DNA of 32,600 bases from a virus. Both the position numbers and the translations under genes were made by a program. Within the stretch, counting starts at the first letter, position 1; each line of letters begins with the position of its first letter. Of this stretch, positions 1,547-27,423 are shown piece after piece. The stretch covers positions 1 to 32,600 of IMG/VR virus record IMGVR_UViG_3300000116_000101, one strand, 5' to 3'. The notes below the pieces were generated by a model. It ran no database searches and was not told the DNA's origin. It saw nothing but the letters and a program-made list of their open reading frames with translations.

Positions 1547-1556
1547 TGATAAATAT
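1547..1556 (-). promoter_or_regulatory. Degenerate copy of the late-region motif before the collagen-like fibre
   Basis: In the sense direction this reads ATATTTATCA, one mismatch from the ATATTTATAA word found before six other late genes. It ends 16 nt before the ATG of the collagen-like fibre, within the 12-21 nt range seen for most exact copies. Assignment as a promoter is inference. Confidence 0.4.
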
Positions 1557-1569
1557 TAAAAGAATATGG

Positions 1570-1764
1570 TTAATCAACTTCTGTAGGTGAAGGAGTGGGT
1601 TGAGAATTTAGATGTTCTTCGATTTGTGTTATTTGATTTTGGAGTTTAATTTGTAAAGTCCCAATAAACATAGCGTCTATTCCCTTAATATTAATTTCTT
1701 TTATTCCTACCAACAATGCCTTTACTTCTCTTAATGATAAGTTTTCTAATGTGTATATGTCCAT
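1570..1764 (-). CDS. Small helical protein, related to its upstream neighbour
   Basis: A 64-residue protein with no signal peptide or membrane segment. The central part (about residues 8-50, ending K-L-Q then an amphipathic stretch) lines up with the 67-aa protein at 1767-1970: L-S/T at the start, a hydrophobic helix, a G near the middle, and a K-L-Q before the last helix. It ends in a short Pro/Thr/Ser-rich tail. The gap to the upstream gene is 2 nt, so the pair is probably co-translated. They sit between two fibre genes, so a role in fibre assembly or attachment is possible, but I recognise no family. Confidence 0.7.
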   Translation of the reverse strand: MDIYTLENLSLREVKALLVGIKEINIKGIDAMFIGTLQIKLQNQITQIEEHLNSQPTPSPTEVD

Positions 1765-1766
1765 AA

Positions 1767-1970
1767 CTATTTATTTTTAAATTTCTCTAAATCAAGATAC
1801 ATTTTTTGTAGTTTTAAGGTTAAATTATAAATTTCCTCCATTTCTCCCCCTGTAAAGGTTGATTTACGGATAATATTTAACATAAAAAGTATCTCTTCTC
1901 TAGTAAGAATTGGCAGACCCATTGCTGGGTCTGCCTTTCCTATTATTGTACTTCCTGATTTGAAACCCAT
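1767..1970 (-). CDS. Small helical protein in the fibre cluster
   Basis: A 67-residue protein. After a short N-terminal strand-like segment it is mostly helical: L-T-R-E-E-I-L-F-M-L near residues 22-31, a T-F-T-G-G turn, then a helix containing L-K-L-Q. This arrangement resembles the 64-aa protein just downstream and looks like an old tandem duplication. It starts 10 nt after the stop of the 700-aa fibre gene and is probably expressed with it. No recognised domain; a fibre accessory role is inference from position only. Confidence 0.7.
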   Translation of the reverse strand: MGFKSGSTIIGKADPAMGLPILTREEILFMLNIIRKSTFTGGEMEEIYNLTLKLQKMYLDLEKFKNK

Positions 1971-1980
1971 TTACATATTC

Positions 1981-4083
1981 TTATGAATAAATAAATATAT
2001 CTTCATTATCTCCTATGAAAATGTTACCTTTCTTCTGGAATTTAGAAACTACTGCTGTTGGAACATCTATTCCGGTTGCACCTTCTACTACCAATGACAT
2101 AAATGAGTCTGGTGTATAAGCTTCTGTACTTGGATCAAATGAACCTGTTGTACTCCATCTAGTTGTTGCTGCATCGTAAGCAAACGCTTCACCATTTGCA
2201 GGACCATCTTGTTGTACTACAATACCACCATCTCCAACTGCTGTTGATCCAGATGCCATTCTGATAAATCTATCAGCTACATCTAAATTCTGAGTGTTTT
2301 GGAAACTTGCTGTACCTGCAACTGTTAAGTTACCTGATACTACTGCGTTTCTTCCAATTTGAACATCTCTTGTTACAGTTAAATCTTGTCCAATTGTTAC
2401 ATCATCTGGTAAACCAATTGTTAAAGCAATGTTTCCACCAATTGCTTGAGCGGAAGTATCTGATACTGTAATTTCATTTGTTGTACCTGCAAATGTTGCA
2501 GTTGTATCTCCTTCTACTGCCGTGTTAGCAGTTGAGCCATAATCTACAGCTATTGTTGGAGTTGAACCTTCACCAGTATTGGATCCAATTGTTACACCAG
2601 TTCCAGATCCAAGTGTAGCAACATAGTTACCTGTTGTATCTGTTCCTAAAGCAACTGAATTTGCTGCAACACCTGCTGCTGTAGTTGCAGTAGCGGCGTT
2701 ACCTGTTGTATTTTGATTAAAGGTTGGGAAAGTGTTTCCTGCACCCGTTAAATCTTTATTTGTTAATGCTTGTGTAGCAGCTAATTGAACAATATTACTA
2801 TTTGTAATACTTGCTATTTTAGTAGCTGTATCAGCATTACCTGTTACATCACCAGTTAAAGCACCTACAAATGCTGTAGAAGTTACACTTGATAATCCTG
2901 CTAATGTTGTAGCCGTTGCTCCTAAATCTACTTCTGTAGAACCAATAGTTACACTATCGTTTGTAAGTGCACTATTTGGAATTCCAGATAAGTTAGCTTC
3001 AACTACGGATATACCTCCTGATGCTACAGATATTGTATTATCTGCTGCTTCAACTGAAACTTGTATACCTGCTGTTCCTCCATTATAAGAAAAATCTGCA
3101 ATACCATTACCATCTGTTAGTGGGTTAGGAACCGCATCAGATCCTGATACTACTCCTGAACCAGATAATATTGTAGCTGCTGTTATTGATCCTCCTAATG
3201 AAACATCAGTACCTGCAATTGTAATACCATCATTTGCTAACATTGCATTACTAATACCACCTGCTTTTACATTTATGGTATCTGTAGTAATTTCAAGTGA
3301 AGTACCATCTACATTTACTGCTAATGCTGATCCAGCACCACCTGATAAACCTGCTCCTGCTACTGCTGATGCAATTTGAGTTGCTGTAATTCCAGCATCT
3401 GCTACTTTTACTCCTGAAGCACCTACTGATAATGTAGATCCATCTGCTTCTACTGCAAATGTTGCTGCTGCTGCTCCATCGTAAGGACCACCTGTTAAAC
3501 CATTACCTGATGTTAAATCTGGTAGATTAGATGTTCCTGAAAATGAACCACTAAATGTACCTGTTGCTGTAACACCTGTAAGTGTTAAACCTGCTAATGT
3601 AGTTGCAGTTGCACCTAAATCTACTTCTGTAGTACCTAGTATTACACTGTCATTTACTAATTGTGAATTTGCTACACCTGTTAAAGCACCACCTAATGTG
3701 ATTACTGGATCAACAGTATCTCCATCTGAAGTTAATGTTAAACCATTTTCTGTTCCAGTTGCTGATACAGTTTGTACTGTACCTGAACCTAAACCTGTTG
3801 CAGCGATACTAATACCACCTGCTGTGTTTGTTACCGTAATATTTGATCCACCAGTAATAGTTCCTAATACAGGATCTGCTCCTGTGGAACCAATTATTAA
3901 TTGACCGTTTGTAGCTTGAGCAAGAGACGTAAGTGCTCCTGTTCCACTACCTACGACTAGGGCGCCGTCTGTAAAGGTTGCCCCTCCTGTACCACCCGAT
4001 TCTACGGGTAATGCTGTATCTAGGGTTAAGCTAGCTAATGCTGCTGATGATCCGGATACAATTACTTTTTTCCATGTTGCCAT
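1981..4083 (-). CDS. Large Thr/Ala/Gly-rich tail fibre protein
   Basis: A 700-residue protein very rich in Thr, Ala, Gly, Ser and Val and almost free of Cys, typical of a beta-rich trimeric fibre shaft. The N terminus (MATWKKVIVSGSSAALASL) matches in pattern that of the collagen-like fibre at 1-1530. At least three internal copies of a unit occur: x-N-x-x-L-x-N-D followed by S/G-x-T-I/L-G-x-T-E-V-D-L-G-A-T and a T-T-L-A-G-L segment, at about residues 135-170, 280-300 and 370-400. The phage-fibre phrase G-N-A-D-T-A-T-K also occurs. The C-terminal 150 residues change to less repetitive sequence (D-R-F-I-R-M-A-S-G-S-T-A-V-G-D-G-G-I) ending in D-I-F-I-Y-S. The start is preceded by the late motif 49 nt upstream. 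Fibre assignment is inference from composition, repeats and location. Confidence 0.8.
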   Translation of the reverse strand: MATWKKVIVSGSSAALASLTLDTALPVESGGTGGATFTDGALVVGSGTGALTSLAQATNGQLIIGSTGADPVLGTITGGSNITVTNTAGGISIAATGLGSGTVQTVSATGTENGLTLTSDGDTVDPVITLGGALTGVANSQLVNDSVILGTTEVDLGATATTLAGLTLTGVTATGTFSGSFSGTSNLPDLTSGNGLTGGPYDGAAAATFAVEADGSTLSVGASGVKVADAGITATQIASAVAGAGLSGGAGSALAVNVDGTSLEITTDTINVKAGGISNAMLANDGITIAGTDVSLGGSITAATILSGSGVVSGSDAVPNPLTDGNGIADFSYNGGTAGIQVSVEAADNTISVASGGISVVEANLSGIPNSALTNDSVTIGSTEVDLGATATTLAGLSSVTSTAFVGALTGDVTGNADTATKIASITNSNIVQLAATQALTNKDLTGAGNTFPTFNQNTTGNAATATTAAGVAANSVALGTDTTGNYVATLGSGTGVTIGSNTGEGSTPTIAVDYGSTANTAVEGDTTATFAGTTNEITVSDTSAQAIGGNIALTIGLPDDVTIGQDLTVTRDVQIGRNAVVSGNLTVAGTASFQNTQNLDVADRFIRMASGSTAVGDGGIVVQQDGPANGEAFAYDAATTRWSTTGSFDPSTEAYTPDSFMSLVVEGATGIDVPTAVVSKFQKKGNIFIGDNEDIFIYS

Positions 4084-4132
4084 TGACTAATTGTTTTTTT
4101 TGATTATTGTTAAGTTTTGAGAATTTTCTCGT

Positions 4133-4142
4133 TTATAAATAT
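4133..4142 (-). promoter_or_regulatory. Late-region motif ATATTTATAA upstream of the 700-aa fibre gene
   Basis: Exact copy of the ten-base word, ending 49 nt before the ATG at 4083. Just downstream (sense direction) an imperfect inverted repeat at 4119-4130 (GAGAA, 2-nt centre, TTCTC) falls in the presumed leader. Candidate late promoter; no -35-like box is apparent. Confidence 0.6.
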
Positions 4143-4180
4143 GCAACCTGTTTTGTTTATTAATATTTTTCTAATTTTTT

Positions 4181-5191
4181 TTAAGTACCTTCAAACCCAA
4201 AAAACACAGATTCAGTTGTAAAATACATATGCCCTGGTTCAGGAGTTGGTTCAAAACCATCAGGTTGAACTCTAAATATAGCTATACCTTCACTATCTAT
4301 TTTAAATAGACTTTGTGTTATCGCAGTTGTATTATTTATTAAGAAATTCTCATTAGTATCTAATGATACAATACTACTACCTGTTACACTTAAACTTCCT
4401 GTTATTTGAGCTGATCCTGTATAAGGAAAAACTGCAGATTCTGATATTAAGGTTGCGAATACTGAGGCTACTGCTGTTTGGTAACCTGCTAAACCTAATG
4501 CTTGAGTACTTGCATTTAAATCACCTCTACCAGCAATTGTTATTAAATTATTTTCAATTTGAGATACAAGTAAAGTACTAGCATTTGATGTAATTTGATG
4601 ACCTTCGTCTTCTATAAATGAAGGTAAATAATCGCTTGCAGTTGCAAAGAAATTGATATTTTGTGAAGAATTTCTACTTTGGATTTTAGTAATTTTATAC
4701 TGACCATATAAACCCTTAATTTCTGAAGATACACTACCTGTATAAGCTAGTTGGGCAGCTATACCCCATGCTGGTAAACTTTCATCATAATCTGCATCTT
4801 CTGAACCTGTAATTGCTCTTGCATCAGCAGGATAACCATCTCCAACTTTTGTAAAAGAAGCGGAAATGAATAAATATTGTCCCTTAGGGGGTCTAATTCT
4901 TCCTGTACCATTACCATTTCCAATCGCGTTTTGATCAACTGTTATGATATCTGCTGATATGTCTGTAATAATAGCATCACCCGTAAGTTTACCACCAGCC
5001 ACTATAACCATACCAACCATTAAGTCAGAGAATACTAGTGGGCCTTGTGAAATAACACAATTTTGTATTGTAGGTTGTCCTGAGGTAAAAGTACCAGTAA
5101 TTCTAATATCATTTATGTTGTTTTCAAATGAAATAAAATCATTAGAACCGTCATATCCTAGTGAGGCAAAATTTATTGTTGGTGTAGCCAT
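4181..5191 (-). CDS. Predicted virion/tail-fibre-associated protein
   Basis: A 336-residue soluble protein with no membrane segment or signal peptide. It sits between a collagen-like fibre and the 700-aa fibre. Composition is Ser/Thr/Ile/Gly-rich and beta-like. Near residues 265-280 it has a T-G-S-A-Q-I-T-G-S-L-S-V-T-G-S stretch, a strand-turn pattern often seen in phage fibre proteins of marine viruses. It ends in P-G-H-M-Y-F-T-T-E-S-V-F-F-G-F-E-G-T. The 32-nt gap upstream lacks the late motif and is A-rich, so it may share a transcript with the 617-aa gene. I do not recognise a named family; a structural role is inferred from neighbours and composition. Confidence 0.7.
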   Translation of the reverse strand: MATPTINFASLGYDGSNDFISFENNINDIRITGTFTSGQPTIQNCVISQGPLVFSDLMVGMVIVAGGKLTGDAIITDISADIITVDQNAIGNGNGTGRIRPPKGQYLFISASFTKVGDGYPADARAITGSEDADYDESLPAWGIAAQLAYTGSVSSEIKGLYGQYKITKIQSRNSSQNINFFATASDYLPSFIEDEGHQITSNASTLLVSQIENNLITIAGRGDLNASTQALGLAGYQTAVASVFATLISESAVFPYTGSAQITGSLSVTGSSIVSLDTNENFLINNTTAITQSLFKIDSEGIAIFRVQPDGFEPTPEPGHMYFTTESVFFGFEGT

Positions 5192-5223
5192 TTATGCTTT
5201 ATTTTTTTTTATTTATTTAATTA

Positions 5224-7077
5224 TTAAAACCTCATTGTCATCATTACCTCACTAAAATTACCAACTCCTGATAATCCTATTTGGTTAAAGTTAGACCCTA
5301 AACTGTAAGAAGTACTAATACCAATATTACCTGAATTTCCTGTACCATCAAAGTTTTTACCTTCTACTGTAACTAAATTTATACTTTGTTTATCACTATA
5401 CCCACCTGCTCCTTCATTTAATCCCGCTGGGACTGTTACTGAATAATCAGTTTGTTGTTTATCTCCTGCACCCGATCCTCCAGACAATACTGTTAAATTA
5501 TTTAATTGAGATGAACCATTTAATCCTCCTGGTGCTACTATTGTTATAGCTGTAATATCATCTGCAGTTGCGGTAACATTTACGCTAAATAGGGTTCCAT
5601 AAACAGCCTCACTACCTGAAGTTCCACCTGTATCTGCACAAGTAAAGGTAAATGTGTTTGATGTTACTGCTGTAATATCGGCTATTTGATAATCTACATT
5701 AGCTGCTCTAAGTACTACTTTATCCCCAACACTTAATCCATGAGAATTAAAAGTAACAACCATACTAGTTGATGTTCTAACCCATGCTGCTGTAAATAAA
5801 TTTGTAGTGGAAGTCATATATACTTCATAATTGTTACCATCAGAATCAGCTAAGTATCTATATTGTGTGTTATATACATTTCCTGATCCACCACCTGAAC
5901 CTTCAGCACCTGTTATACCTTGTATACCTTGTGTACCCGTTATACCTTGAATACCTTGAGAACCTGCACCTATTATACCTTGTACACCTTGAGTACCCGT
6001 TATACCTTGAATACCTTGAGAACCTATACCTGTTATACCTTGTATACCTTGTATACCTTGATCACCAGTAATACCTTGGATTCCTTGAATACCTTGATCA
6101 CCAGTAATACCTTGGATTCCTTGAATACCTTGATCACCTGCACCTTCTATACCTTGTATACCTTGTATACCTATTATACCTTGTGTACCAGTAATACCTT
6201 GAATACCTTGAGAACCTGCACCTGTTATACCTTGTATACCTTGTATACCTTGATCACCAGTAATACCTTGTATTCCTTGGATTCCTTGTGAACCTGCACC
6301 TGTTATACCTTGTATACCTTGAGTACCTTGTAAACCTGTTATACCTTGGATTCCTTGTGAACCTGCACCTGTTATACCTTGAATACCTTGAGAACCTTGA
6401 ATACCTGTAATACCTTGTATTCCTTGTGAACCTGCACCTTCTATACCTTGAATACCTTGTGTACCTATTATACCTTGTATACCAGTAATACCTTGTATTC
6501 CTTGAATACCTTGACCACCTGCACCTGCTATACCTTGTATACCTTGTATACCTTGAGCAGCTTGATATCCTTGAATACCTTGAATACCTTGTATTCCTTG
6601 TGAACCTGCACCTGTTATACCTTGAATACCTTGAATACCTTGACCACCAGCGCCTGTTATACCTTGTATACCTTGAGTACCTAATCCACCCGTTACACCT
6701 TGAGTACCTTGTATACCTTGTATACCTTGAGCAGCTGCATATCCCTGAATACCTTGTGAACCAATTATACCTTGTAGACCTTGAGAACCTTGTGATCCTC
6801 CTGCTGAGGCTCCTCTAAAAAGTTCTCCATCAGGTTTTATTAATACCATTGGGTAAGCTTGTTCTCCTGGTGTTGTTGCTTCGTTTGCGTATGTTCCCTT
6901 TAAAGTTACATCTCCTGTAGTTTCAAGAGACCCAGACAACTTTGCTGATCCTGAAAGGTTATATTTTGTAAATCTGGTATATGTGAAAGCATCAACAATT
7001 TGTTTTACTTGTGAAGCCTCTACTGTTTCTCCTGTTTGTATCCCATTAGGGTCTAATTCTGTTGGTTCAATTGCCAT
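5224..7077 (-). CDS. Collagen-like tail fibre protein, complete
   Basis: A 617-residue protein with three parts: an N-terminal non-repetitive head (about residues 1-92), a long Gly-X-Y region (about 93-395) and a C-terminal globular domain (about 396-617). The triplets are mainly G-I-Q, G-I-T and G-S-Q, with regular breaks such as G-A-G-S-Q and G-Y-A-A-A-Q. Proline is almost absent from the array, unlike animal collagen. The head does not resemble that of the other two fibres and carries S-G-S-A-K-L-S-G-S-L-E-T-T-G-D-V-T-L. The C-terminal domain is Ser/Thr/Gly/Asn-rich and ends M-M-T-M-R-F. Collagen-like phage proteins usually form trimeric fibres; a receptor-binding role is inferred. The late motif lies 21 nt upstream of the ATG. 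Confidence 0.88.
   Translation of the reverse strand: MAIEPTELDPNGIQTGETVEASQVKQIVDAFTYTRFTKYNLSGSAKLSGSLETTGDVTLKGTYANEATTPGEQAYPMVLIKPDGELFRGASAGGSQGSQGLQGIIGSQGIQGYAAAQGIQGIQGTQGVTGGLGTQGIQGITGAGGQGIQGIQGITGAGSQGIQGIQGIQGYQAAQGIQGIQGIAGAGGQGIQGIQGITGIQGIIGTQGIQGIEGAGSQGIQGITGIQGSQGIQGITGAGSQGIQGITGLQGTQGIQGITGAGSQGIQGIQGITGDQGIQGIQGITGAGSQGIQGITGTQGIIGIQGIQGIEGAGDQGIQGIQGITGDQGIQGIQGITGDQGIQGIQGITGIGSQGIQGITGTQGVQGIIGAGSQGIQGITGTQGIQGITGAEGSGGGSGNVYNTQYRYLADSDGNNYEVYMTSTTNLFTAAWVRTSTSMVVTFNSHGLSVGDKVVLRAANVDYQIADITAVTSNTFTFTCADTGGTSGSEAVYGTLFSVNVTATADDITAITIVAPGGLNGSSQLNNLTVLSGGSGAGDKQQTDYSVTVPAGLNEGAGGYSDKQSINLVTVEGKNFDGTGNSGNIGISTSYSLGSNFNQIGLSGVGNFSEVMMTMRF
6061..6132. repeat. Perfect 36-bp tandem repeat, two copies
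   Basis: Positions 6061-6096 and 6097-6132 are identical, encoding two copies of a 12-residue block of four Gly-X-Y triplets (G-D-Q, G-I-Q, G-I-Q, G-I-T). They lie in a wider array at about 5900-6800 of near-identical 9-bp-based units. Exact identity suggests recent slippage. Confidence 0.9.
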
Positions 7078-7098
7078 GATGTATTGGTATTTATTTTA

Positions 7099-7108
7099 TT
7101 ATAAATAT
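7099..7108 (-). promoter_or_regulatory. Late-region motif ATATTTATAA upstream of the collagen-like fibre
   Basis: Exact copy in the 39-nt gap between the 352-aa gene and the fibre gene, ending 21 nt before the ATG at 7077. Followed in the sense direction by an A/T stretch with no Shine-Dalgarno sequence. Candidate late promoter. Confidence 0.62.
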
Positions 7109-7116
7109 ATAAAAGG

Positions 7117-8175
7117 TTATTGTCTATCAATGTTTACTAAAATTGTTGTATCAGTAGTTCTTGATGTAGGAAGAGGTTGTGCCATTTTCCCAATTGCTAC
7201 TAATTCATTATTATTATTATATAAGCCTACTGTTGTAACATATGGGGAAAAATATGATCCCGTGGCATATGCATAAACAGTACCGTCATTACTAGAACCT
7301 GATATAGTGGAAGGATTTAGTGTATAGTTAAATTCACTTTCTCCTATTGTACATTTATATTGCGTCTCATAAATAGTAAAAGAAGATGAAAATTCTAAAG
7401 TTATATTAAGAGTATCTATAAGATTTTCAACATCATTATTTCCTACTGTTCTTCCACCATATATACCGTTTCCATATTCCGCACTACCCCAATACCCTTC
7501 TTCTCCAATTCCTTCTTTTCTGCTTCCACCAGTAAAAACAATCATACCTTGTCCGTAAATAACATTACCTACTACGGTTATAGTATCGTTTATATTTGTT
7601 CTTATTAGTTTACCTTCACCATCATCATAATAACTTCCACTTGGAGTAGTAATATTAATAGAACTAGGTAAAATATAATCTCCAAACAAAGATTTAGGTA
7701 TTGATATTACTCCTATAGTAGGATCAATTTCTGAGGATTCACCATAAAGACCCTCTCCATATATAATACCTCCCCATAAAGGACCATCTAATATTTGAGT
7801 TATATAAGAACTAGTTGGCCAATATTTTTCTGGGTTTAGATCAGTTTGATCAAAATTTTCAAAGGCATTTGAATCTATTATACCATGAGTAGTACCATCT
7901 GGGTAAATTGATTGTGTATTAGCTATTTGTACCTCACCATTACTACTTGAGATATAATTTGAATAATATAATTGTTGAGCAGAATAATATACAGAAGACT
8001 GTGAATATTCTGTTATATACCCCGTAGCACTAGAAGTTTTGAATTTGTTCCCTAAAAAACGATCAATCCCTACATCAGAAGTAGTTAAAGCATCTCCAGT
8101 AAATGAAAATCCTTTAGTTAGTTCTAAAGGTGATATTATTATATCTTGTGAGTTTAATGTTTTGTACGCCCCCAT
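7117..8175 (-). CDS. Tail/baseplate-periphery protein, paralogue of the next gene upstream
   Basis: A 352-residue protein. Its last 80 or so residues match those of the 344-aa protein at 8182-9216 in order: S-E-F-N-Y, then N-P-S and I-S-G-S, then T-x-V/I-G-L-Y-N with N-E-L-x-A and a final P-L before a V-x-x-D ending. The E-F-N-Y-x-x-N-P phrase recurs in structural proteins of marine T4-like phages as I know them. The N-terminal two thirds are Tyr/Ser/Gly-rich, with a run of G-x-G-Y/E-Y-G-N-G-I-Y-G-type turns near 228-240. The gap to its paralogue is 6 nt, so both are likely translated from one message. Exact structural position unknown. Confidence 0.75.
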   Translation of the reverse strand: MGAYKTLNSQDIIISPLELTKGFSFTGDALTTSDVGIDRFLGNKFKTSSATGYITEYSQSSVYYSAQQLYYSNYISSSNGEVQIANTQSIYPDGTTHGIIDSNAFENFDQTDLNPEKYWPTSSYITQILDGPLWGGIIYGEGLYGESSEIDPTIGVISIPKSLFGDYILPSSINITTPSGSYYDDGEGKLIRTNINDTITVVGNVIYGQGMIVFTGGSRKEGIGEEGYWGSAEYGNGIYGGRTVGNNDVENLIDTLNITLEFSSSFTIYETQYKCTIGESEFNYTLNPSTISGSSNDGTVYAYATGSYFSPYVTTVGLYNNNNELVAIGKMAQPLPTSRTTDTTILVNIDRQ

Positions 8176-8181
8176 TCATTC

Positions 8182-9216
8182 TTAAAAGTCTAATTTAACC
8201 CTTACTAAAGCTTCTTTTGTAAAATCTTTGTTTAAAGGTTTTGATAATTTAGCTACTGCTAACAATTCATTACTGTCATTATATAATCCAATTGATGTCA
8301 TATATGTTTGAGGGTTATTAATAAAGTAATTATAAATAACTTCTCCAGTTGATCCTGAAATATATGATGGGTTTTCTGAATAGTTGAATTCTGAGTTTCT
8401 TGCTCTAATAAATACAAAATCTGAAGTAATTGTTTCTTCTGAGTTTAATCCAAATGAAGAACCTGTTATAAAACTGTTAAGTAATTTTACTGGGTTAGTG
8501 GGATCGGAAATTGAGTTTACGTCTTGGTTTGTATCTAAAGATATTCCTCCATCTGCTCCAGATAAATCTAAAGCATCTCCATTAAATAATATTGTTCCAA
8601 TATCTGGTAAAAATAAACCATATGAACCACTTTTTTCTGTATATCCTGTACCACCTGAACCTGAGTTATATGAAAAACCATCAGATCCACTAATTACTTC
8701 ATATGCTCTCATTGTACCATAAAAAGTTGGTACAGTAACCATATTTGAATTATCAGTTAAAGTTACTTGTTGGTTTGTAGGACCAGTTAATATTACATTT
8801 AATGAACCAGGGAATAAAGATTGTTTATAAGCTGATCTTTCTACACTAACAGCATAAATTGAACTACCTGTAACACCCCCAAATACAAAAGATCCATTTT
8901 CATCTTCTAACACTAGTGTTCTATATTGCCCATAAATTGTAGAAGCTGGAGATACATTAGGCACTGCTGGTTGATTATAAGCAAGAGCTCCTCCTCCCGT
9001 TTCATTACCATAAGCAATTTCAAATTGGGCTTTTGACCCTGCCTCAGCCTGATCAAGGTTATATACTGCTGTATAATATTTTCCTGATTCTGCTACTACT
9101 TGACCTGATCTTGTAAAGAAGGTTGTAAGTACTGGTGCGTTATTTGTCCAACAGGTGGCAGTTTGTGCTTGTGCACTTACTACAAAATCATCTGCTTCTA
9201 ATCTTTTAAATCCCAT
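8182..9216 (-). CDS. Tail/baseplate-periphery protein, paralogue of the downstream gene
   Basis: A 344-residue protein that pairs with the 352-aa protein. The shared C-terminal domain (about 262-344) contains R-N-S-E-F-N-Y-S-E-N-P-S and S-I-G-L-Y-N-D-S-N-E-L-L-A-V-A-K. The N-terminal part is different (begins MGFKRLEADDFVVSAQAQTA) and includes a segment on uniform strand spacing (K-Y-Y-T-A-V-Y-N-L) that suggests beta sandwich. It follows the 221-aa gene by 10 nt and is probably in the same unit. Context among fibre and periphery genes supports a virion role; the paralogy is visible directly, the function is not. Confidence 0.75.
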   Translation of the reverse strand: MGFKRLEADDFVVSAQAQTATCWTNNAPVLTTFFTRSGQVVAESGKYYTAVYNLDQAEAGSKAQFEIAYGNETGGGALAYNQPAVPNVSPASTIYGQYRTLVLEDENGSFVFGGVTGSSIYAVSVERSAYKQSLFPGSLNVILTGPTNQQVTLTDNSNMVTVPTFYGTMRAYEVISGSDGFSYNSGSGGTGYTEKSGSYGLFLPDIGTILFNGDALDLSGADGGISLDTNQDVNSISDPTNPVKLLNSFITGSSFGLNSEETITSDFVFIRARNSEFNYSENPSYISGSTGEVIYNYFINNPQTYMTSIGLYNDSNELLAVAKLSKPLNKDFTKEALVRVKLDF

Positions 9217-9226
9217 ATCTTTTTTA

Positions 9227-9892: not shown

Positions 9893-9911
9893 TTGTGTTT
9901 ATTATTATATG

Positions 9912-9921
9912 TTATAAATAT
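9912..9921 (-). promoter_or_regulatory. Late-region motif ATATTTATAA upstream of the 221-aa gene
   Basis: Exact copy in the 30-nt gap after the 1555-aa gene, ending 19 nt before the ATG at 9892. It nearly abuts the upstream stop codon, so the gap is almost entirely motif plus leader. Candidate late promoter for the 221-344-352 unit. Confidence 0.62.
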
Positions 9922-9922
9922 G

Positions 9923-14590: not shown

Positions 14591-14603
14591 TTATGTTATT
14601 TTG

Positions 14604-14613
14604 TTATAAATAT
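14604..14613 (-). promoter_or_regulatory. Late-region motif ATATTTATAA upstream of the 1555-aa gene
   Basis: Exact copy in the 56-nt gap after the 1762-aa gene, ending 13 nt before the ATG at 14590. The rest of the gap is A/T-only runs with no hairpin, so no terminator for the upstream gene is visible. Candidate late promoter. Confidence 0.62.
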
Positions 14614-14646
14614 TTTAAAACTATTTTTTTATACTATTATTATTTT

Positions 14647-19935: not shown

Positions 19936-19962
19936 ATTTAGAAAGTAGTGGTATTTGTAATA

Positions 19963-20430: not shown

Positions 20431-21592
20431 TAACTACTTTAAAGTAATAATTCTCATCCATCACTATGGTTTGACCCGCTATTTCAGTTTGAATCAATAT
20501 ACAATAATACCTTTCAGGTTCCAAACCATTCATATAAACAGTAAAGAAACTTCCAGTTGAATCACAACTAATATTTGTAAATTCTTTATCAAAATCTACA
20601 ACAAATTCATTAGTATCTAAATCCTTAATAGCATATAAAGATTGTGAAGGTAAAGCATAATTTGTTGTATAAACAGAAGCGGTTTGAAAACTACGAATTG
20701 GAAATTCGGGACGTACACTTAATCTAAAATTATTTATACTTTCACTGTAAAATACACCTTGGTTATTATCTAATGCTACAAATAAATCAGGAGTATTAAT
20801 AACATCTAAGGATCCTGTTTCATATACAGAATCATCCCACTTTATTTCTAATTGTGGTGGGTAGATTGTATTTGTGTCTACTGAATAATAACTTAATTGG
20901 GGAGATACTGCACTTGAAGTAATAAATTCTTTATCAGTTTCCCATTTTACTATAAATCCTTCGTTTGCTATTTCTATTTTACCTGCATTTAAACCCCTAG
21001 ATGATGAATACCATACTCTTAATGCATCTGTTACATTAACATTTAAGTCTTTGTCACTTCTTAAATTAAAGGATTGTGTAAACTCTAAAGGACCAATTCC
21101 TTCATATCCACCTGATCCTGTATACCATACTCCACCTCCTGCGTTATTACTTCCAGAAAATGAGGCTGTAATAAGTGGATTCCAACCTCCGGTTGACCAT
21201 TTATTTGAACCTGAATAATCAGAGTATACCCAACTTACACCTGTAGTATTAAAGGGTTTATCTAGATATTGACCTGATCCATTATTCCATGATCCTGATA
21301 TAGGGTAAACTTCTATGTTTGATTTTAAAATAACATTCGTTGCTTTTGATACATTCAATTTTAAACTCCCTGAAAAGTTATCCCAAGATCCTGTTACTTT
21401 TGCTATATTATCAATTACATCGTTTATCTGTGACTGATCAAATTTAACTAGAGATCTTGCTACTTGGGCTATAGGGTTTATGTCTGTTACTTTATTGTTT
21501 ACATCTAATATAGGATCCAACCCAGTATTCATTGCTGGGTACGCACTATATATTGAAGCGTCTTGGGAGGGAAATAATTTATATACTGCCAT
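20423..21592 (-). CDS. DNRLRE-like virion structural protein
   Basis: A 389-residue soluble protein. The start has the pattern of the DNRLRE/CBM96-like sandwich: F-P-S-Q-D-A-S-I-Y-S near residues 7-16, N-T-G-L-D near 23, then R-S-L-V-K-F-D near 46. Near residue 190-230 the matching second half appears: V-T-D-A-L-R-V-W-Y followed by N-A-G-K-I and G-F-I-V-K-W. The remaining C-terminal 130 residues look like an Ig-type strand domain. DNRLRE-like domains usually occur in surface proteins and can bind carbohydrate; here the gene lies directly after gp6 (2-nt gap), so a wedge or periphery role is likely. The domain assignment is pattern-based and moderately sure; the function is inference. Confidence 0.68.
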   Translation of the reverse strand: MAVYKLFPSQDASIYSAYPAMNTGLDPILDVNNKVTDINPIAQVARSLVKFDQSQINDVIDNIAKVTGSWDNFSGSLKLNVSKATNVILKSNIEVYPISGSWNNGSGQYLDKPFNTTGVSWVYSDYSGSNKWSTGGWNPLITASFSGSNNAGGGVWYTGSGGYEGIGPLEFTQSFNLRSDKDLNVNVTDALRVWYSSSRGLNAGKIEIANEGFIVKWETDKEFITSSAVSPQLSYYSVDTNTIYPPQLEIKWDDSVYETGSLDVINTPDLFVALDNNQGVFYSESINNFRLSVRPEFPIRSFQTASVYTTNYALPSQSLYAIKDLDTNEFVVDFDKEFTNISCDSTGSFFTVYMNGLEPERYYCILIQTEIAGQTIVMDENYYFKVVNG

Positions 21593-21594
21593 AA

Positions 21595-23436
21595 TTATAA
21601 GTTTACTACTTTTCCTTTAATATCTCTATTTGGATATTTTAATTCAAAAATACTTGGATCTAAAGAAGGAAATATTGTTCCATTTTGGTTTGCACCATTC
21701 ATATCATAAGCCCATTGTGAATATCCACTATTTGTTCCTGCAATGTTACTTATTACTATAGACTTAACAGTTTGTACTCCTTCTAATGCATCTAACATTA
21801 CAAATAAATCGGGAGTAATTATAGGTTGATTAATTTGCCATTTATCAATATTAAAATAAGTTTGAAGTGAAACTATACACCTTTCAAGTACCTCATTACT
21901 GTTATAATTAGGATAAGTTACAATTTGGAAATTTATACCAAAATTAATAATAAAAGCATCTTTAATACTAATAGTATCACCAATCATTCTATACTCATTA
22001 AGATATGTTCTAACATTTTCTTTTAAAGTATCTGAGGGAGTGGTTAAATAATTGTTATTGTCTTCTGTTAGTACGTAAAGGTCTAATGTTGTATTAGCAT
22101 CATCGGCATTTGGTTTTTGTGTCCATGCTTTTGCAATTCTACCATATTTAGAAGGCATACTTAAAGCTCTTACTAAATAATCATTAGCTGTTACATTTCT
22201 TAATTGAGTAGAAAAATTTGATATACTATTTTGTCTTATTTCTTCTATTGTATCTCCATCTTGACCTCCTGAAGCTGCTTCGGGGTTGTTAGTTGCTACA
22301 GAGTTAAATATATATTGTGCTAGATTAGGATCTAATCCACCTTTTATAAATTTTATATTTGTAGTATTAACATTTGTAATAGTATTTGATAACACATTAG
22401 ATTTAACCCCACCACCAGTATAATATCTTACTGTTAGAGTAGTATTTGATGGAGAAATACCGTATGTGTTTGTAAAAACAAAATTTGTAGGACTATAAGC
22501 GGTTGTTAATTTATTTTGTTCAAAAGGTAAACCTAAACCTACATTCATTGAATTTGGAATAATTTCTTCTGTTGTACTATTTGGGTTACCAACTCCAAAT
22601 TGAAGTTGAAGTCTATTACTACTTAAAAATCTAGTTGCAAATCTAGTTTCTACTGATTTAGTTTGTAATAAATAAGGTGTATCTGTATCTAAATAAGTAT
22701 TTGGGTCATTTATATTTGTGTTTTTAATACCATCAAATATTAATTCTTGTCCTAAATAATCAACTTCATACCATTTATTTCCATCAGAATCTATTACATC
22801 AACTATACCTGCTATATTAGGTTCATTAATTTCAAGTGTAATGAAATCTTGTGGGGATCCTATGGAAAATTGAGTTTGATTAATTTTAGCTGAGAATACT
22901 TTTCTTGATTTTTTTAATAGGTAAAAAGTAGGATTACCTCCTGATATTTGACCAATTGAAACCGTAGTTGGGTCTAATGAACTGGAGGAAGTAAAATCAA
23001 TTGGATTATCTAATGTAAAAGTTACGGGTGTTGCTGAAGTTGTCGTTATTGATGTATTAGCATCTACATATAAGGCATAATCATAATCAGGAACAGATTC
23101 ATTATTAACTAGTTTAGCTGGAACTTGTTGGTATATATCTATGATAGTATTTGATAAACCTGTAACTCTAGGTTTATAACCATACATATAGGCCATATCA
23201 AATATATTACTCTGTTGTCTAGCATACTGTAAAAAGTTTTCTTGAATTTGATTATCTAAATAGAAAGATAACACATCCCCTACATACGCTGCTTGTTCTA
23301 TAAACATCATCCCCGGGGAGGTGTTTGAAAAATCTGTATAAGTCTTTGGGAAGTATGTTTGGCTATAATTAATTAGCTGGGATCTATACTCTGAAAAATC
23401 CTTATTTATATATTTTATGTCTTTTCTTACAGCCAT
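21595..23436 (-). CDS. 6: Baseplate wedge subunit, gp6-like (baseplate J family)
   Basis: A 613-residue protein, close to T4 gp6 in length (about 660). The N terminus holds the characteristic block S-P-G-M-M-F-I-E-Q-A-A-Y-V-G-D-V-L-S-F-Y at about residues 40-59, followed by Q-E-N-F-L-Q-Y-A-R and a hydrophobic M-Y-G-Y-K-P segment. At about 385-430 the baseplate-J-like phrase G-D-T-I-E-E-I-R-Q-N then R-N-V-T-A-N-D-Y-L appears. In T4 and P2-like phages this protein forms the dimeric core of each baseplate wedge and, with gp25, triggers sheath contraction. Its start overlaps the gp25 stop codon (TAATG), so the two are translationally coupled, as expected for partners. Identification is strong. 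Confidence 0.92.
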   Translation of the reverse strand: MAVRKDIKYINKDFSEYRSQLINYSQTYFPKTYTDFSNTSPGMMFIEQAAYVGDVLSFYLDNQIQENFLQYARQQSNIFDMAYMYGYKPRVTGLSNTIIDIYQQVPAKLVNNESVPDYDYALYVDANTSITTTSATPVTFTLDNPIDFTSSSSLDPTTVSIGQISGGNPTFYLLKKSRKVFSAKINQTQFSIGSPQDFITLEINEPNIAGIVDVIDSDGNKWYEVDYLGQELIFDGIKNTNINDPNTYLDTDTPYLLQTKSVETRFATRFLSSNRLQLQFGVGNPNSTTEEIIPNSMNVGLGLPFEQNKLTTAYSPTNFVFTNTYGISPSNTTLTVRYYTGGGVKSNVLSNTITNVNTTNIKFIKGGLDPNLAQYIFNSVATNNPEAASGGQDGDTIEEIRQNSISNFSTQLRNVTANDYLVRALSMPSKYGRIAKAWTQKPNADDANTTLDLYVLTEDNNNYLTTPSDTLKENVRTYLNEYRMIGDTISIKDAFIINFGINFQIVTYPNYNSNEVLERCIVSLQTYFNIDKWQINQPIITPDLFVMLDALEGVQTVKSIVISNIAGTNSGYSQWAYDMNGANQNGTIFPSLDPSIFELKYPNRDIKGKVVNL

Positions 23437-23843
23437 TAGTTAAAATTTAAATTTAAAGTATCTTCAATAGCAGTATTTATAACATTATAGTATATTTGCA
23501 CTGTTACTTCATTATTGTCTGAGTTATTTAAAACATTTAATTCTTGAACATTTACAAGAGGAAATTCGGTCGCTATTTTTTGTTGTACATCTTCTCTTAA
23601 AAAATCTAAATTATCTGAATTTATTTGAGTAAATATAAATTTTCTTAAACCACCACCAAAAGTAGGATTACCTGGTCTTTCTCCTGGGTTTGTTAGGAAA
23701 TAATTAATTAAGTTATTTTTTATTGCCTGAGCAGTTTGATAATTAGGAGTGAACACACCACCTTCATTGAATGGGATGTTTACTCCAATACCAACTGAGG
23801 GTCTTAAATCATTAACAAATTGATTGGGTGCTCTAAATGCCAT
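23436..23843 (-). CDS. 25: Baseplate wedge subunit gp25 (GPW/gp25 family)
   Basis: A 135-residue protein matching T4 gp25 (132 aa) in length. The family hallmark N-P-G-E-R-P-G-N-P-T-F-G-G-G-L-R-K-F-I-F lies at residues 52-71, containing the GER and FG-GL residues conserved in the family. The rest is the expected helix followed by beta strands (E-V-T-V-Q-I-Y-Y near 111). In contractile tails this small subunit joins the wedge core to the sheath. It overlaps gp6 by one base (TAATG) and follows the 131-aa gene by one base, so the three are one operon segment. A confident call. Confidence 0.93.
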   Translation of the reverse strand: MAFRAPNQFVNDLRPSVGIGVNIPFNEGGVFTPNYQTAQAIKNNLINYFLTNPGERPGNPTFGGGLRKFIFTQINSDNLDFLREDVQQKIATEFPLVNVQELNVLNNSDNNEVTVQIYYNVINTAIEDTLNLNFN

Positions 23844-23844
23844 A

Positions 23845-24240
23845 TTATACTTTTCCTTTCATTATATTATTAATCATATCCATAGATACCTCACCTTGAG
23901 GTAATTGACCATTTGGGGATGTAGTATCCATACTACCCATTTGTAATGGCATACTATTAGTATTTGCACTTATAGTACCATTTACTCCAGGTCTCATACC
24001 ATCTAAAACACTCATCATGTTTTCTCTTAGTTTCAGTTTATCCGTTTCAGGGAGTGAAGTTTGCATTACTGGGTTCAGGGGACTAGGTGTTCCCGGATCT
24101 GTTGAAGGGGTTGCTGTTATTCTTTCGACAACGGTTTGTCTAGGAGCACGCACAGCTTCCATAAGGATGTCTTTCATCTCTTCTTGTATAGCCTCTTTCA
24201 CTGCTTCTTTTACGATTGTTTTTAATTGATTTAGTTTCAT
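23845..24240 (-). CDS. Small protein of unknown function in the baseplate operon
   Basis: A 131-residue protein. It begins with an amphipathic helix (MKLNQLKTIVKEAVKEAIQE) followed by an acidic Met-rich helix; the second half is a Pro/Ser/Thr/Met/Gly-rich tail of low complexity ending in D-M-I-N-N-I-M-K-G-K-V. The helical start K-L-x-Q-L-K-x-I-V-K-E is a frequent opening of small proteins in marine phages and makes the ATG at 24240 credible. An exact late motif ends only 4 nt before that ATG, closer than at other genes. It lies one base before gp25. Function unknown; a scaffold or assembly role is only a guess. Confidence 0.7.
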   Translation of the reverse strand: MKLNQLKTIVKEAVKEAIQEEMKDILMEAVRAPRQTVVERITATPSTDPGTPSPLNPVMQTSLPETDKLKLRENMMSVLDGMRPGVNGTISANTNSMPLQMGSMDTTSPNGQLPQGEVSMDMINNIMKGKV

Positions 24241-24244
24241 ATGT

Positions 24245-24254
24245 TTATAAATAT
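24245..24254 (-). promoter_or_regulatory. Late-region motif ATATTTATAA abutting the 131-aa gene
   Basis: Exact copy lying 4 nt before the ATG at 24240, in the 18-nt gap after the 488-aa gene. If this is a -10-type box, initiation would fall at or beyond the start codon, implying a leaderless message or a different function of the word. It would head the segment 131 aa - gp25 - gp6 - DNRLRE - 155 aa. Confidence 0.55.
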
Positions 24255-24258
24255 TGAA

Positions 24259-25725
24259 TTAATCTGCTTTTAAATTGTTTTGTATTATATAAAATGCTAG
24301 TTCGTCTAGTAATATTTGATCTTCAGCACTAAATGAAGGTTCTCCTTGTAATATTATAATTCCTCCTGAATTTTTAGCTATTGCTTTTCTTTTGTATTGG
24401 TCACCTACTTTAGATTTATCTTCTTGTACCACAGATAATTCAAAACCATTTACATTAGTTAATATTGTATTACCTTGTTCTTGTGAGTTAGCTTGTATTG
24501 CTAAAAGCTCAGCATTTATTTGTTCCATAGGTATATCACCACCACAATTTTCTATTAGTTCATCAACACGTTTTAAGTATCTTAATATTATTATTAAGGA
24601 TATAACTAAAAATATAAGGGATATAAGTAATGCCTTTTTTAAATCTTCGGATATATCAACTAAATCTTTAAGTAACTCTTTAACATCTTCTAATTTTGCT
24701 ATTAAAGAATAAGGTACACCTACACCAGGAGGTGTGGCAACTGGGAAGCCTATTGCGGAAATACTACTTTTTACACCCCTTAATTGGATTGATAAGTAAA
24801 GAAATAAAGCTGCTATTGCTGTGTTTGCTGCTATTACTATCCACATTTGGTTTATTTGTTTAACTATAGAGTTTCTTCGTTTTATAAGTTCTCTTAAAAG
24901 CTCATTATTGGGGCATACTGCCGTTTCTTGTTCTTCTTTTTCTAATTTGGTAATACCAAACACAACCATTAAAGATATAGCTAAAGGAAATAATTTGTTT
25001 TGGGCTACCCCAGCAAATGCTAATATTTGAGCTTTTATGGTAATTATAGCTATTTGGACTGCTCCTAAGCCTATAAGGGCGGCAGTTTCAGCTAGCTTAT
25101 TCATTTCATCTTTTACTTGATCTGCCCTTCTTTCAGCTTCTTTATCTATATCAATTAATTTCTTTATAGGTAAAATTTGTGGTACTTCTCCCTCAAGGGT
25201 TATTAAAGATTGTTTATCTGGGGCGTATTGGTCTTTTTTATAAAGAACTGTTGGTTCTAATATAGATAATTCGGGTAAAGCTTCAATTGATACTGTTCCA
25301 AACCTAATCTCATATTCTCCATTTTCATCAGTTTTTATTTCTTTATTACCATTTTTATCATATACATATTCTTTATATTCTTCCTCTTTTTTTATTTGTT
25401 TAGGTTTACCAGTTATTCTATTTATTTTACCACTGGGGTCGTCAACTTTAATTTTTCTGGTTTTGGTTACTAATTTCATTGGAAATAAAACAAGTAAAGG
25501 TTTTACTTCAACTCCTTGAATAGGTTCACTTGTTTGTTCACTATATAATCTTCCTTTAGTAGAAAAAGTAGTAATAACAGGTTTGTATTTTTCAAGTTGT
25601 TCTTTAGTTGCTTTAAAATCATCAACATTGTCTTTTACACCTTCAGCTTTTGCTATTATTTCCTGACCTTTAGGGGTATTTAAAAATACTTTACCTAAAT
25701 CTAATAATGTTTTTTCATCTATCAT
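24259..25725 (-). CDS. Multi-pass hydrophobic protein with Ig-like domain in the baseplate operon
   Basis: A 488-residue protein. Residues about 53-180 look like a carboxypeptidase-regulatory-like (Ig-fold) domain: K-G-R-L-Y-S followed by E-P-I-Q-G-V-E-V, then T-D-E-N-G-E-Y-E-I and a tail K-D-Q-Y-A-P. After a charged linker come hydrophobic segments at about 214-230, 243-258, 294-314 and 364-381, separated by Lys/Arg/Glu-rich helices. The C-terminal 100 residues are soluble. Such membrane-like segments are unusual in a baseplate gene; the gene is locked between hub and gp25 (1-nt gap to the hub gene, 18 nt to the next) so it is likely a virion or assembly protein. Possible roles: a hub component that enters the host membrane, or an inner-membrane assembly factor. 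Both are inference. Confidence 0.72.
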   Translation of the reverse strand: MIDEKTLLDLGKVFLNTPKGQEIIAKAEGVKDNVDDFKATKEQLEKYKPVITTFSTKGRLYSEQTSEPIQGVEVKPLLVLFPMKLVTKTRKIKVDDPSGKINRITGKPKQIKKEEEYKEYVYDKNGNKEIKTDENGEYEIRFGTVSIEALPELSILEPTVLYKKDQYAPDKQSLITLEGEVPQILPIKKLIDIDKEAERRADQVKDEMNKLAETAALIGLGAVQIAIITIKAQILAFAGVAQNKLFPLAISLMVVFGITKLEKEEQETAVCPNNELLRELIKRRNSIVKQINQMWIVIAANTAIAALFLYLSIQLRGVKSSISAIGFPVATPPGVGVPYSLIAKLEDVKELLKDLVDISEDLKKALLISLIFLVISLIIILRYLKRVDELIENCGGDIPMEQINAELLAIQANSQEQGNTILTNVNGFELSVVQEDKSKVGDQYKRKAIAKNSGGIIILQGEPSFSAEDQILLDELAFYIIQNNLKAD

Positions 25726-25726
25726 A

Positions 25727-27055
25727 TTAGGTAGTTTTTACTTTTTTAGATTTATAATCACCTGATTGTGCTCGGTTAGATATATTATCTAATACACCCC
25801 CAGATTGACTAAGGATATTTGCTAAAGATGAAGCAATAGGAAGAGAACCTTCTTTACCTAAAGCACTACATAAAGTTTTTAAGTTATCTATTAATGCGGT
25901 GAAATCATCTAAAAATTTATCACCCAAAATTATGGATTCGGATGCATTTTGTTTACCTAAAGATACCACACCCTTATCAGATATAATATTTACATTTTTA
26001 GTTTGAGATTGTATACCTAAATCTTCAATTGATGTTAATACAATAGACTTTTGTGAAGAAAATAATATACTATCAATATGAGTATTAAATAATAATCTAC
26101 CTGAATTTAGTATTACTTGAGGGCCATTATAAGACTTAGGGGATTTTGGTACAGGGGAAATTATATTAGAATAAGGTATAGTTGAACCTTCACCTTCACG
26201 TTTTAAAGCAACCGCTATATCAAAAGGTATTTTTTGAGTAGAAGTTAAATATATAGACGTAGGGTCATTATTTATATCTTCTGTTATAGGTAAATAACCT
26301 TCTGATGAACCACTTATAGGTTGACCATTTTTTATAATAGTAATTGGGTCTCCGTTTTTAGTATTATTACCAGCAGACCAATTATTTGTAATAGTACCCC
26401 CAGCTTTAGAAGTATTACCCAATCTAATACTATTACCAAATCTACCTTCAAGTATATTATCTCCGGCAAAGGGTAAAATAGGGTGAATATCTCCTTTTTC
26501 TTCAAAAGTACCACCACTATTACCATTTAAATTTATACTTTGTTTTTGTGTGGTAGGTCTACTTACATTTCCTGTTTCTATTGAAGTATAAGATTTATTT
26601 AAAGAGGGAGCAACATTATTATCAGTATTTAAACTTGTAGGTACAGCATTCATATGTTGGCTGTTCCATAATGAAGTAATACTTACATAAAAATTCTTTA
26701 ATTTAACCCCTATATCTGGGTTTTGATTTGATGGTCCTCGTACAATAAGTACATATTCGTTAACTAAAGGATAAGTTTTTAAATTAGGAAATAAAGGGGT
26801 TGCTAATTGAATAGTAGTACCATCCAAACTTGTATTACCTGCAGTTTTAGCCTCAGTAAAGTTAATTGTCCCAATTCCTGACCACTTACCTGTTTGGTTG
26901 AATAAATCAGAATTAGAATTAAGATTAATATCTACAACTCTTGCAATTATAAATTTTCCAATTTGTGAAGCCTCACTATCAACATCACTTATACTTGAGT
27001 TAGTATTGGGTGATGATTGAAATAATCTAGAGATTCCAGTTTTATTTACTGCCAT
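25727..27055 (-). CDS. Baseplate hub/central spike OB-fold protein, gp5-like
   Basis: A 442-residue protein. The N-terminal 34-135 segment reads as an OB-like barrel (G-K-F-I-I-A-R-V-V-D-I-N ... L-V-N-E-Y-V-L-I-V ... Y-V-S-I-T-S-L-W-N). At residues 203-213 E-G-R-F-G-N-S-I-R-L-G is the phrase I know from gp5-type hub proteins of marine T4-like phages. The later part (about 315-385) has regular short strands (Q-V-I-L-N-S-G-R-L-L-F-N and S-I-V-L-T-S), a spike-like beta pattern. No lysozyme domain is visible between the parts, unlike T4 gp5, which has one. It overlaps the 119-aa gene by 14 nt. Central hub or spike is the best reading; other OB-fold tail proteins remain possible. Confidence 0.75.
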   Translation of the reverse strand: MAVNKTGISRLFQSSPNTNSSISDVDSEASQIGKFIIARVVDINLNSNSDLFNQTGKWSGIGTINFTEAKTAGNTSLDGTTIQLATPLFPNLKTYPLVNEYVLIVRGPSNQNPDIGVKLKNFYVSITSLWNSQHMNAVPTSLNTDNNVAPSLNKSYTSIETGNVSRPTTQKQSINLNGNSGGTFEEKGDIHPILPFAGDNILEGRFGNSIRLGNTSKAGGTITNNWSAGNNTKNGDPITIIKNGQPISGSSEGYLPITEDINNDPTSIYLTSTQKIPFDIAVALKREGEGSTIPYSNIISPVPKSPKSYNGPQVILNSGRLLFNTHIDSILFSSQKSIVLTSIEDLGIQSQTKNVNIISDKGVVSLGKQNASESIILGDKFLDDFTALIDNLKTLCSALGKEGSLPIASSLANILSQSGGVLDNISNRAQSGDYKSKKVKTT

Positions 27056-27401
27056 CTTTTTTTTCTTCGTAATTCTTATTAAGGGTTTCTAACTCTTTCA
27101 TTAATTGATCTTTTTCTTCATCTGTAATTCCAGTAGGATCATCACTAATTGAATTGTTTAAAACACGTTGTATAATTGTGGACATTTTTATTAACTGTTC
27201 GTCATTTCGAACACCAATTTCCATATATTCTTTTATAAGAGGAACAATCAAAGTAGCATCACCAATATCGTTAATTAATGGTTTTAATTCTGATATTAAT
27301 CCTCCTATTTGTTGTTGTTTTGTTTTTTGGTTATCGTATATCTCACTTAATATATCTGAGAATTTTTTACTACCAAATACTACACTATCTAATGCGCCCA
27401 T
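27042..27401 (-). CDS. Small protein of unknown function preceding the baseplate hub gene
   Basis: A 119-residue all-helical protein. Core residues about 37-65 read L-I-S-E-L-K-P-L-I-N-D, then T-L-I-V-P-L-I-K-E-Y-M-E-I-G-V-R-N-D-E-Q-L, which looks conserved; the C-terminal 30 residues are a charged coiled-coil-like helix. The gene overlaps the hub gene by 14 nt in another frame and carries an exact late motif 12 nt upstream, so it opens the baseplate unit. I do not recognise a family. A small hub assembly or late-transcription accessory role would fit the position, but nothing in the sequence proves it. Confidence 0.7.
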   Translation of the reverse strand: MGALDSVVFGSKKFSDILSEIYDNQKTKQQQIGGLISELKPLINDIGDATLIVPLIKEYMEIGVRNDEQLIKMSTIIQRVLNNSISDDPTGITDEEKDQLMKELETLNKNYEEKKDGSK

Positions 27402-27413
27402 GATGTTATTTTA

Positions 27414-27423
27414 TTATAAATAT
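27414..27423 (-). promoter_or_regulatory. Late-region motif ATATTTATAA opening the baseplate unit
   Basis: Exact copy in the 37-nt gap between the sigma-factor gene and the 119-aa gene, ending 12 nt before the ATG at 27401. The next gene upstream encodes the gp55-like factor that would be expected to read such a box. Candidate late promoter. Confidence 0.65.

Follow-up and report, generated by a model that had tools for sequence, protein, structure and literature searches.

A ten-base element before virion genes as the probable core of a late promoter class in T4-like Bacteroidetes phages

In bacteriophage T4, the late promoter consists of a box, TATAAATA, spanning positions -13 to -6 (PMC1524935), and is read by gp55 with gp33 and gp45 (PMC2988020, PMC1524935, PMC7892883). 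In Flavobacterium johnsoniae, the -7 box is TAHHTTTG, with T-12, A-11, T-8, T-7, T-6 and G-5 near-invariant, and the -33 motif is much less evident (PMC6847099). The open-access literature searched, which did not include the genome papers of phages immuto and RM378, describes no late promoter for T4-like Bacteroidetes phages, and a search that did not cover subscription papers gave nothing on-topic for TATTTATAA as a phage promoter. Here we analyse a ten-base word, ATATTTATAA, which recurs ahead of virion genes in a 32,600-nucleotide (nt) stretch of viral DNA (positions 1 to 32,600 of IMG/VR record IMGVR_UViG_3300000116_000101; hereafter the window). Most likely, it represents a late promoter class of T4-like Bacteroidetes phages, perhaps extending to Rhodothermus relatives, that plays T4's role in another spelling. 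That the element has a promoter function is, judged from sequence, very likely; with good probability, the word is the core of this class and a phage sigma-like factor joins the host polymerase and reads it.

Six exact copies of ATATTTATAA are present in the window, all on the minus strand, which is the gene strand, and the plus strand has none. As the original prediction had stated, all six point one way and lie 4-49 nt before the next ATG; 6 of the 30 window genes used here carry one, and no copy falls inside a gene. Taken in the direction of transcription, the sites, all on the minus strand, are 27414..27423 (12 nt to the gene of a 119-amino-acid (aa) protein, unit 119aa-442aa-488aa), 24245..24254 (4 nt to the 131-aa gene, unit 131aa-gp25-gp6-389aa-155aa-1762aa), 14604..14613 (13 nt to the 1555-aa gene), 9912..9921 (19 nt to the 221-aa gene, unit 221-344-352), 7099..7108 (21 nt to the gene of the 617-aa collagen-like fibre) and 4133..4142 (49 nt to the 700-aa gene), the last being also found in a relative, G002. 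At 7099..7108, the coding tail of the preceding gene contains a TTG 18 nt ahead of TATATTTA. The comparison with shuffled sequence proposed earlier separates the word clearly from chance: dinucleotide shuffles of the whole window contain 1.6 copies on average and 5 at most, none of 100 reaching six. Similarly, first-, second- and third-order Markov models trained on the same 60-nt upstream stretches of 29 genes in which copies were counted predict 0.12, 0.11 and 0.18 copies, and six copies were reached in 0 of 2000 simulations for each order. Copies with at most one mismatch are at chance level in the window (29 observed vs 28.5 expected), and the signal is thus carried by the exact core alone. 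The one-mismatch copy announced before the left collagen-like fibre does exist (ATATTTATCA, 1547..1556, minus strand, 16 nt from the fibre gene) but is, for this reason, a poorly supported candidate; its conservation in a relative with a 98% identical factor adds little.

The word is also conserved, with the same orientation, among viruses encoding relatives of the sigma-like factor whose gene lies ahead of the first unit. In 26 related contigs, 163 sense copies of ATATTTATAA were counted vs 10 antisense ones. This count leaves out IMGVR_UViG_3300000115_000101, a near-copy of 32,599 bases with a 100% identical factor and six copies at the coordinates of the window, which is therefore probably the same contig. 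Two sets of factor relatives were then considered, namely the best 80 of 472 IMG/VR stretches found via the window protein and the best 80 of at least 600 found via the factor of phage immuto. Of 80 relatives, 76 have the exact word no more than 75 nt downstream of the factor gene, and of the four that do not, two are truncated at this place. A count over 163 sources gave 196 sense copies vs 8 antisense ones, many being one site seen across several relatives; 177 of the 196 lie at most 70 nt upstream of a script-called open reading frame (ORF), and only 6 of all 204 are inside ORFs. As the sites of relatives are homologous, a non-redundant set was also built, comprising 56 of 226 sites with TATTTATAA at most 60 nt from an ORF. 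In these sites, information is found at position -1 (A 0.61, C 0.32), in the core and in an AAA some bases downstream, and the region upstream of the core is almost flat, which bears out the earlier remark that no -35 box is obvious. The real unit is thus [A/C]TATTTATAAnnAAA without a -33 element and with an A-rich tail; its conserved core is TATTTATAA, preceded by A or C, and the exact ten-mer is the commonest form in the window clade. The gp6 baseplate gene is also found on contigs of two Flavobacteriales metagenome bins which, together with the host of immuto, suggests that the hosts of these phages are Flavobacteriales.

Flavobacterium phage immuto, an isolated phage with a complete 160-kb genome, encodes a factor, gp118, 45% identical to that of the window, and its late and early genes could be compared, late being defined as 78,900-102,000 and from 117,600 on, by reading the annotation and not by expression. 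ATATTTATAA occurs eight times on the forward strand of immuto and never on the reverse one, six of the copies being in the late region. Exact copies are found upstream of the sheath, tube, a fibre and a spike gene, and also of gp107, which is placed like the 221-aa gene of the window; the terminase, portal and tape-measure genes are preceded by forms with one or two changed letters. A de novo motif search was performed on the late (64) and early (168) gene sets apart, with an upstream background. A genome-wide background applied to the 232 upstream regions had returned a generic A-rich leader and was replaced. The best motif of the late genes is gaTATTTATAAnaA. That of the early genes is TTC.TATATTTAG, and about 20 nt upstream of it there is a TTG; several of the sites assigned in this search are weak. 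Within the early genes at 60,988-76,244, a host-type promoter, TTG-N20-TATATTTAG, is repeated and in many cases followed by GTATCAATAATTAAAACA. Of the 64 late genes, 22 have [AC]TATTTAT within 100 nt, vs 16 of the 168 early genes (p 1.6e-5). Conversely, the early-type box precedes 0 of 64 late vs 25 of 168 early genes. When the window, with its about 65,000 positions, was scored by a matrix made from 20 immuto sites, all six exact sites were among the best 11, three of them occupying ranks 1-3.

Some of these observations speak against a late promoter. Two of the eight exact immuto copies lie in the early region, where 16 genes have the element, and the major capsid gene has none. Moreover, 42 of the 64 late-region genes lack it within 100 nt, many of which are probably internal to units. 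In the window, ranks 4 and 5 of the immuto matrix are antisense and inside genes; the five of the top 11 that are not exact sites, three antisense and two sense, are all within genes; and the matrix match counts are only modestly above those of shuffled sequence.

In the mechanism that we favour, [A/C]TATTTATAAnnAAA would act as a -10/-7-type element without a fixed upstream (-33) partner. The sigma-like protein, encoded just ahead of the first late unit, would associate with the host RNA polymerase and read the element, so that virion genes fire late, and early genes would use host sigma-A promoters. Late mRNAs would start within a few bases of the element, with a short, A-rich leader that could be nearly nil at some genes. 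The first alternative to be weighed is that the word is the -7 box of the host Bacteroidetes sigma-A without its -33 box, no phage factor being needed. The little evident -33 motif of F. johnsoniae (PMC6847099) would agree with it, as would the TATTTA common to the late core and the immuto early box; so would a small excess of TTG near the host distance (offsets 24-26), seen at 7 of 58 late sites vs 0-2 at shifted positions, which also counts against our own proposal. Nevertheless, positions of the host box are missing in both of the alignment registers that we checked and that are themselves presumed. In the TTT register, T-12 is found at 1 of 7 window sites and TA at T-12/A-11 in only 13 of 58 non-redundant sites, with C in place of A-11 at 32 non-redundant sites, all from the immuto clade and none from the window clade. 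In the first-TA register, T-7 and G-5 fail by the very definition of the core. In addition, no immuto late gene has the early-type box, and among the non-redundant sites of all sources, 28 of 39 early-type ones share a TTG offset, while no TTG offset exceeds 4 of 56 late ones. Host sigma-A is therefore unlikely to be the sole reader, and we consider this explanation improbable.

Another alternative is a true T4-type late promoter, TATAAATA, whose letters have drifted and whose box, at -13 to -6, would correspond to the TATAA of the core. The TATAA is indeed common to both, and the gp55-like factor, the T4-like virion genes and the clamp-like and clamp-loader genes of a relative (see below) would all fit. 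However, the T4 box itself shows no upstream excess, contrary to what the likening to T4-type promoters in the original prediction would imply: in the window it is found 8 vs 8 times by strand, only one copy being near a start, and in immuto the genes preceded by it are 3 of the 64 late vs 5 of the 168 early ones. None of the six sites has the T found at the seventh position of the T4 box, and conservation runs upstream into TATT.

The distance to the ATG is a further argument against the T4 geometry. Of 104 candidate homologues of the 131-aa gene, 102 have the element upstream, the two exceptions resembling other genes. In the immuto clade, the gap is 2 nt in 56 sources and 3-5 nt in 3; in the window clade, it is 4 nt in 20 sources and 13-19 nt in 21, and in the two Flavobacteriales bins, it is 6 and 17 nt. 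With gaps of 2-5 nt, the T4 spacing would place the RNA start past the ATG of the 131-aa gene and exclude it from the transcript. This would apply to each of the 59 immuto-clade genes that have the element and to 20 of 41 window-clade ones, the other 21 (13-19 nt gap) being uninformative. At these short gaps, use of this ATG by the late mRNA would require a transcription start no more than a few bases from the core, and the 131-aa gene would be translated in a near-leaderless way; such starts would come and go among relatives. It is possible that the 131-aa protein is translated from read-through RNA instead. Altogether, drifted T4 promoters appear quite improbable, more so than host sigma-A.

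The nearness of the element to the ATG would also agree with an element acting at the RNA level, as a translation start signal or as a site of processing or decay within the leader of late transcripts, all the more so as Bacteroidetes are described as lacking Shine-Dalgarno sequences and favouring A at -3 and -6 (PMC6847099). Yet the gap between element and ATG varies overall from -1 to 59 nt, with two peaks, only 6 of 30 window genes have the exact word and most immuto early genes have no element (16 of 168 have one), which makes this explanation very improbable. Finally, although TATTTATA is the reverse complement of TATAAATA, its letters being exactly identical, T4-type promoters facing backwards would direct transcripts antisense into the previous gene at each site and would leave the conserved last A, the AAA tail and the [A/C] outside the octamer, so that we give this idea hardly any credence.

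The late promoter proposed here would need a reader, and the gene just before the first unit (27439..28152, minus strand) encodes a candidate, a sigma-like, gp55-like factor of 237 aa with a predicted sigma region 2 fold at about residues 14-121 and a second helical domain at about 146-237. Of 25 family members, 13 have weak matches to the Pfam sigma region 2 model (best E 0.001) and 7 to the PHROG late sigma (best E 0.026); with the same Pfam model, even T4 gp55 does no better than E 0.087. In the predicted model of the factor (mean predicted local distance difference test score, pLDDT, 73), the best of 377 aligned PDB chains is T4 gp55 (7d7c_F), with a Z of 10.4 over 122 residues at 5.3 Å. 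Profile comparison gives a score of 28.7 with T4-type gp55 vs 23.4 with host RpoD and 22.7 with extracytoplasmic function (ECF) sigmas. The gp55 null is 14.0 +/- 2.7, and permuted columns reach 28.7 in 0 of 120 cases, and the RpoD and ECF scores in 1 of 120 each. The relationship to gp55 is nevertheless called into question by other results. Taken alone, the window protein reaches E 0.052 with the PHROG late sigma and 0.022 with Pfam region 2, the immuto factor has no Pfam match, and the hhalign probability of the factor family with gp55 is 17.5%. Other sigmas closely trail T4 gp55 (next Z 10.2), and helical models may reach such Z values by chance. With the whole model, Foldseek finds nothing under E 0.15, its top matches being other sigmas and T4 gp55 being absent from the best 50 matches listed, and in a viral structure library the protein of the T4-type phage KPV15 ranks only 44th. 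Sequence searches of solved structures with the factor gave no relevant match. The proteins of phage RM378 were also tried as relatives of the factor and gave no match.

The prediction of a gp55-like factor before the first unit thus stands as to the gene, its place and its best solved match, but the likeness is remote and other sigmas are close: the model hints weakly at a remote gp55 relative in region 2, with gp55 not clearly ahead of other sigmas. No late element was seen upstream of the factor gene, as expected of a product made before the late phase. From the context and the predicted fold, and with a search for other possible readers that was not exhaustive, we think there is a good chance that this gp55-like protein reads the element.

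The second domain of the factor raises another possibility. Residues 116-237, when modelled alone, are helical and well scored in part, and 11 of the top 13 structural matches of the C-terminal domain are sigma region 4 stretches, at Z values of at most 5.9, an assignment made from entry titles and residue ranges, with one Thermus protein accounting for several of the matches. Against the viral library, the whole model matches first a nameless protein (E 2.9e-5) and next a Bacillus phage sigma-E (E 6.7e-3), with further named sigmas below. Foldseek with the C-terminal domain alone found nothing under E 2, Pfam region 4 matches 0 of 25 family members, and this domain has no sequence support against gp33 or against host RpoD (12) and ECF (8) sets, in which ORFs were chosen by position and loci without an ORF or with a short one were dropped. 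By these weak structural matches, the second domain resembles region 4 and the factor could be a single-chain late sigma. The full proposal, which we regard as rather unlikely though worth stating, would be that of a gp55-like region 2 fused to a degenerate, gp33-like counterpart of region 4, which would hold the polymerase flap without reading DNA, the promoter letters having shifted towards the host phylum's -7 box. A review of T4 from 2010 states that no fused late sigma has been found in nature and asks why (PMC2988020).

The partners of gp55 in T4 were searched for in the relatives and, for the clamp, in immuto. A profile of five gp33 proteins matched 0 of 5 relatives at E up to 1; the T4 control was found, and gp33 diverges fast. 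In a relative with an 85% identical factor (G014), a gp45-like processivity factor (phrog_223, E 1.5e-6) and a gp44-like clamp loader (E 1.1e-75) were found, together with a DNA polymerase in two ORFs. At L232:1889-4955, the DNA polymerase is apparently split between ORFs of 576 and 288 aa, about 470 bases apart. The idea that these phages have no clamp was dropped, since G014 has a clamp-like gene and a loader, and a T4-style coupling to replication is possible, on gene content, in the clade of the window, itself a partial record. In immuto, PF09116 and PF16790 find no clamp or loader and the annotated polymerases are of family A; as PF09116 also missed phage Mel-JY01, which has loader genes, the absence of a clamp in immuto is not proven.

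Related spellings are found further away. In Rhodothermus phage RM378, which has genes on both strands and whose early and late genes were taken together, 39 of the 146 genes have a sense TATTTAA and 13 an antisense one in the 60 nt before them. The sense sites include those of sheath, tube and portal, many being a few bases from the ATG, and a narrower form, TATTTAAAA, has 11 sense and 0 antisense sites. The available portion of PMC5587285 makes no mention of TATTTAA as a promoter-like motif. In Mel-JY01 (factor 39% identical to that of the window), the top enriched 7-mer upstream of presumed late genes is TATTTAT, and out of 67, [AC]TATTTAT is found at 13 in sense and at 2 in antisense orientation vs 0 and 0 for TATTTATAA. 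Deposited as a Microcystis phage, Mel-JY01 has some TAnnTTTG-like promoters, yet many of its genes have GGAG-type ribosome sites; its host label may deserve a check.

As regards the genes of the window, all on the minus strand, the 119-aa gene that opens the first unit (27042..27401) is defined as an ORF, and the 131-aa gene (23845..24240), with its element very close upstream, as an ORF with relatives. The gp25-like baseplate wedge (23436..23843; PF04965 E 4.4e-9, phrog_261 4e-17) and the gp6/gpJ-like one (21595..23436; phrog_219 3.5e-14, PF04865 4.8e-7) deserve the names given to them earlier, but the 442-aa 'hub' and the 389-aa 'DNRLRE' genes match no family in Pfam or PHROGs. Elements do precede the late units as they had been divided, although the 336-aa gene at 4181-5191, which sits after the 617-aa fibre gene without a copy of its own, was missing from them. 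The two collagen-like fibres (1-1530 and 5224-7077) contain long GIQGIQG repeats, and the left one is 1907 aa long in G002.

If these interpretations are right, the motif would serve as an annotation rule for late units in many uncultured phages, 472 stretches encoding a relative of the factor, and its likely reader can be named. Immuto and Flavobacterium sp. LMO8 form an isolated phage-host pair in which both could be tested. Should the factor have a built-in region-4-like domain, it would bear on the open question of why T4 splits its late sigma and, were the single-chain late sigma true, the promoter-factor pair would also be expected to work in immuto, where no clamp was found.

Compared with the known systems, the element shares with Bacteroidetes sigma-A promoters (TTTG / TAHHTTTG; PMC6847099) a TATTTA-like middle, as in the immuto early box, and an A-rich leader. 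Unlike them, it lacks a TTG fixed at -33, a TA fixed at -12/-11 and a G at -5, and it is found mainly on late, not early, immuto genes. With the RM378 motif it has in common TATTTA, the A-rich tail, a position often a few bases from the ATG and its place before sheath, tube and portal genes, but in RM378 an A, not a T, follows TATTTA, and the RM378 sigma is an ordinary two-domain sigma without detectable sequence relation to the window factor. It differs from T4 late promoters in its letters, probably in the spacing to the start site, and in the Bacteroidetes hosts; no gp33 was found in the five relatives, and the factor has an additional predicted C-terminal domain. Like T4 late promoters, however, it is a short -10-like box without a -35 partner, placed before virion genes and accompanied by a phage sigma-like factor, in phages with T4-like baseplate genes in the window, T4-like head genes in immuto and clamp-like and loader genes in one relative of the window clade.

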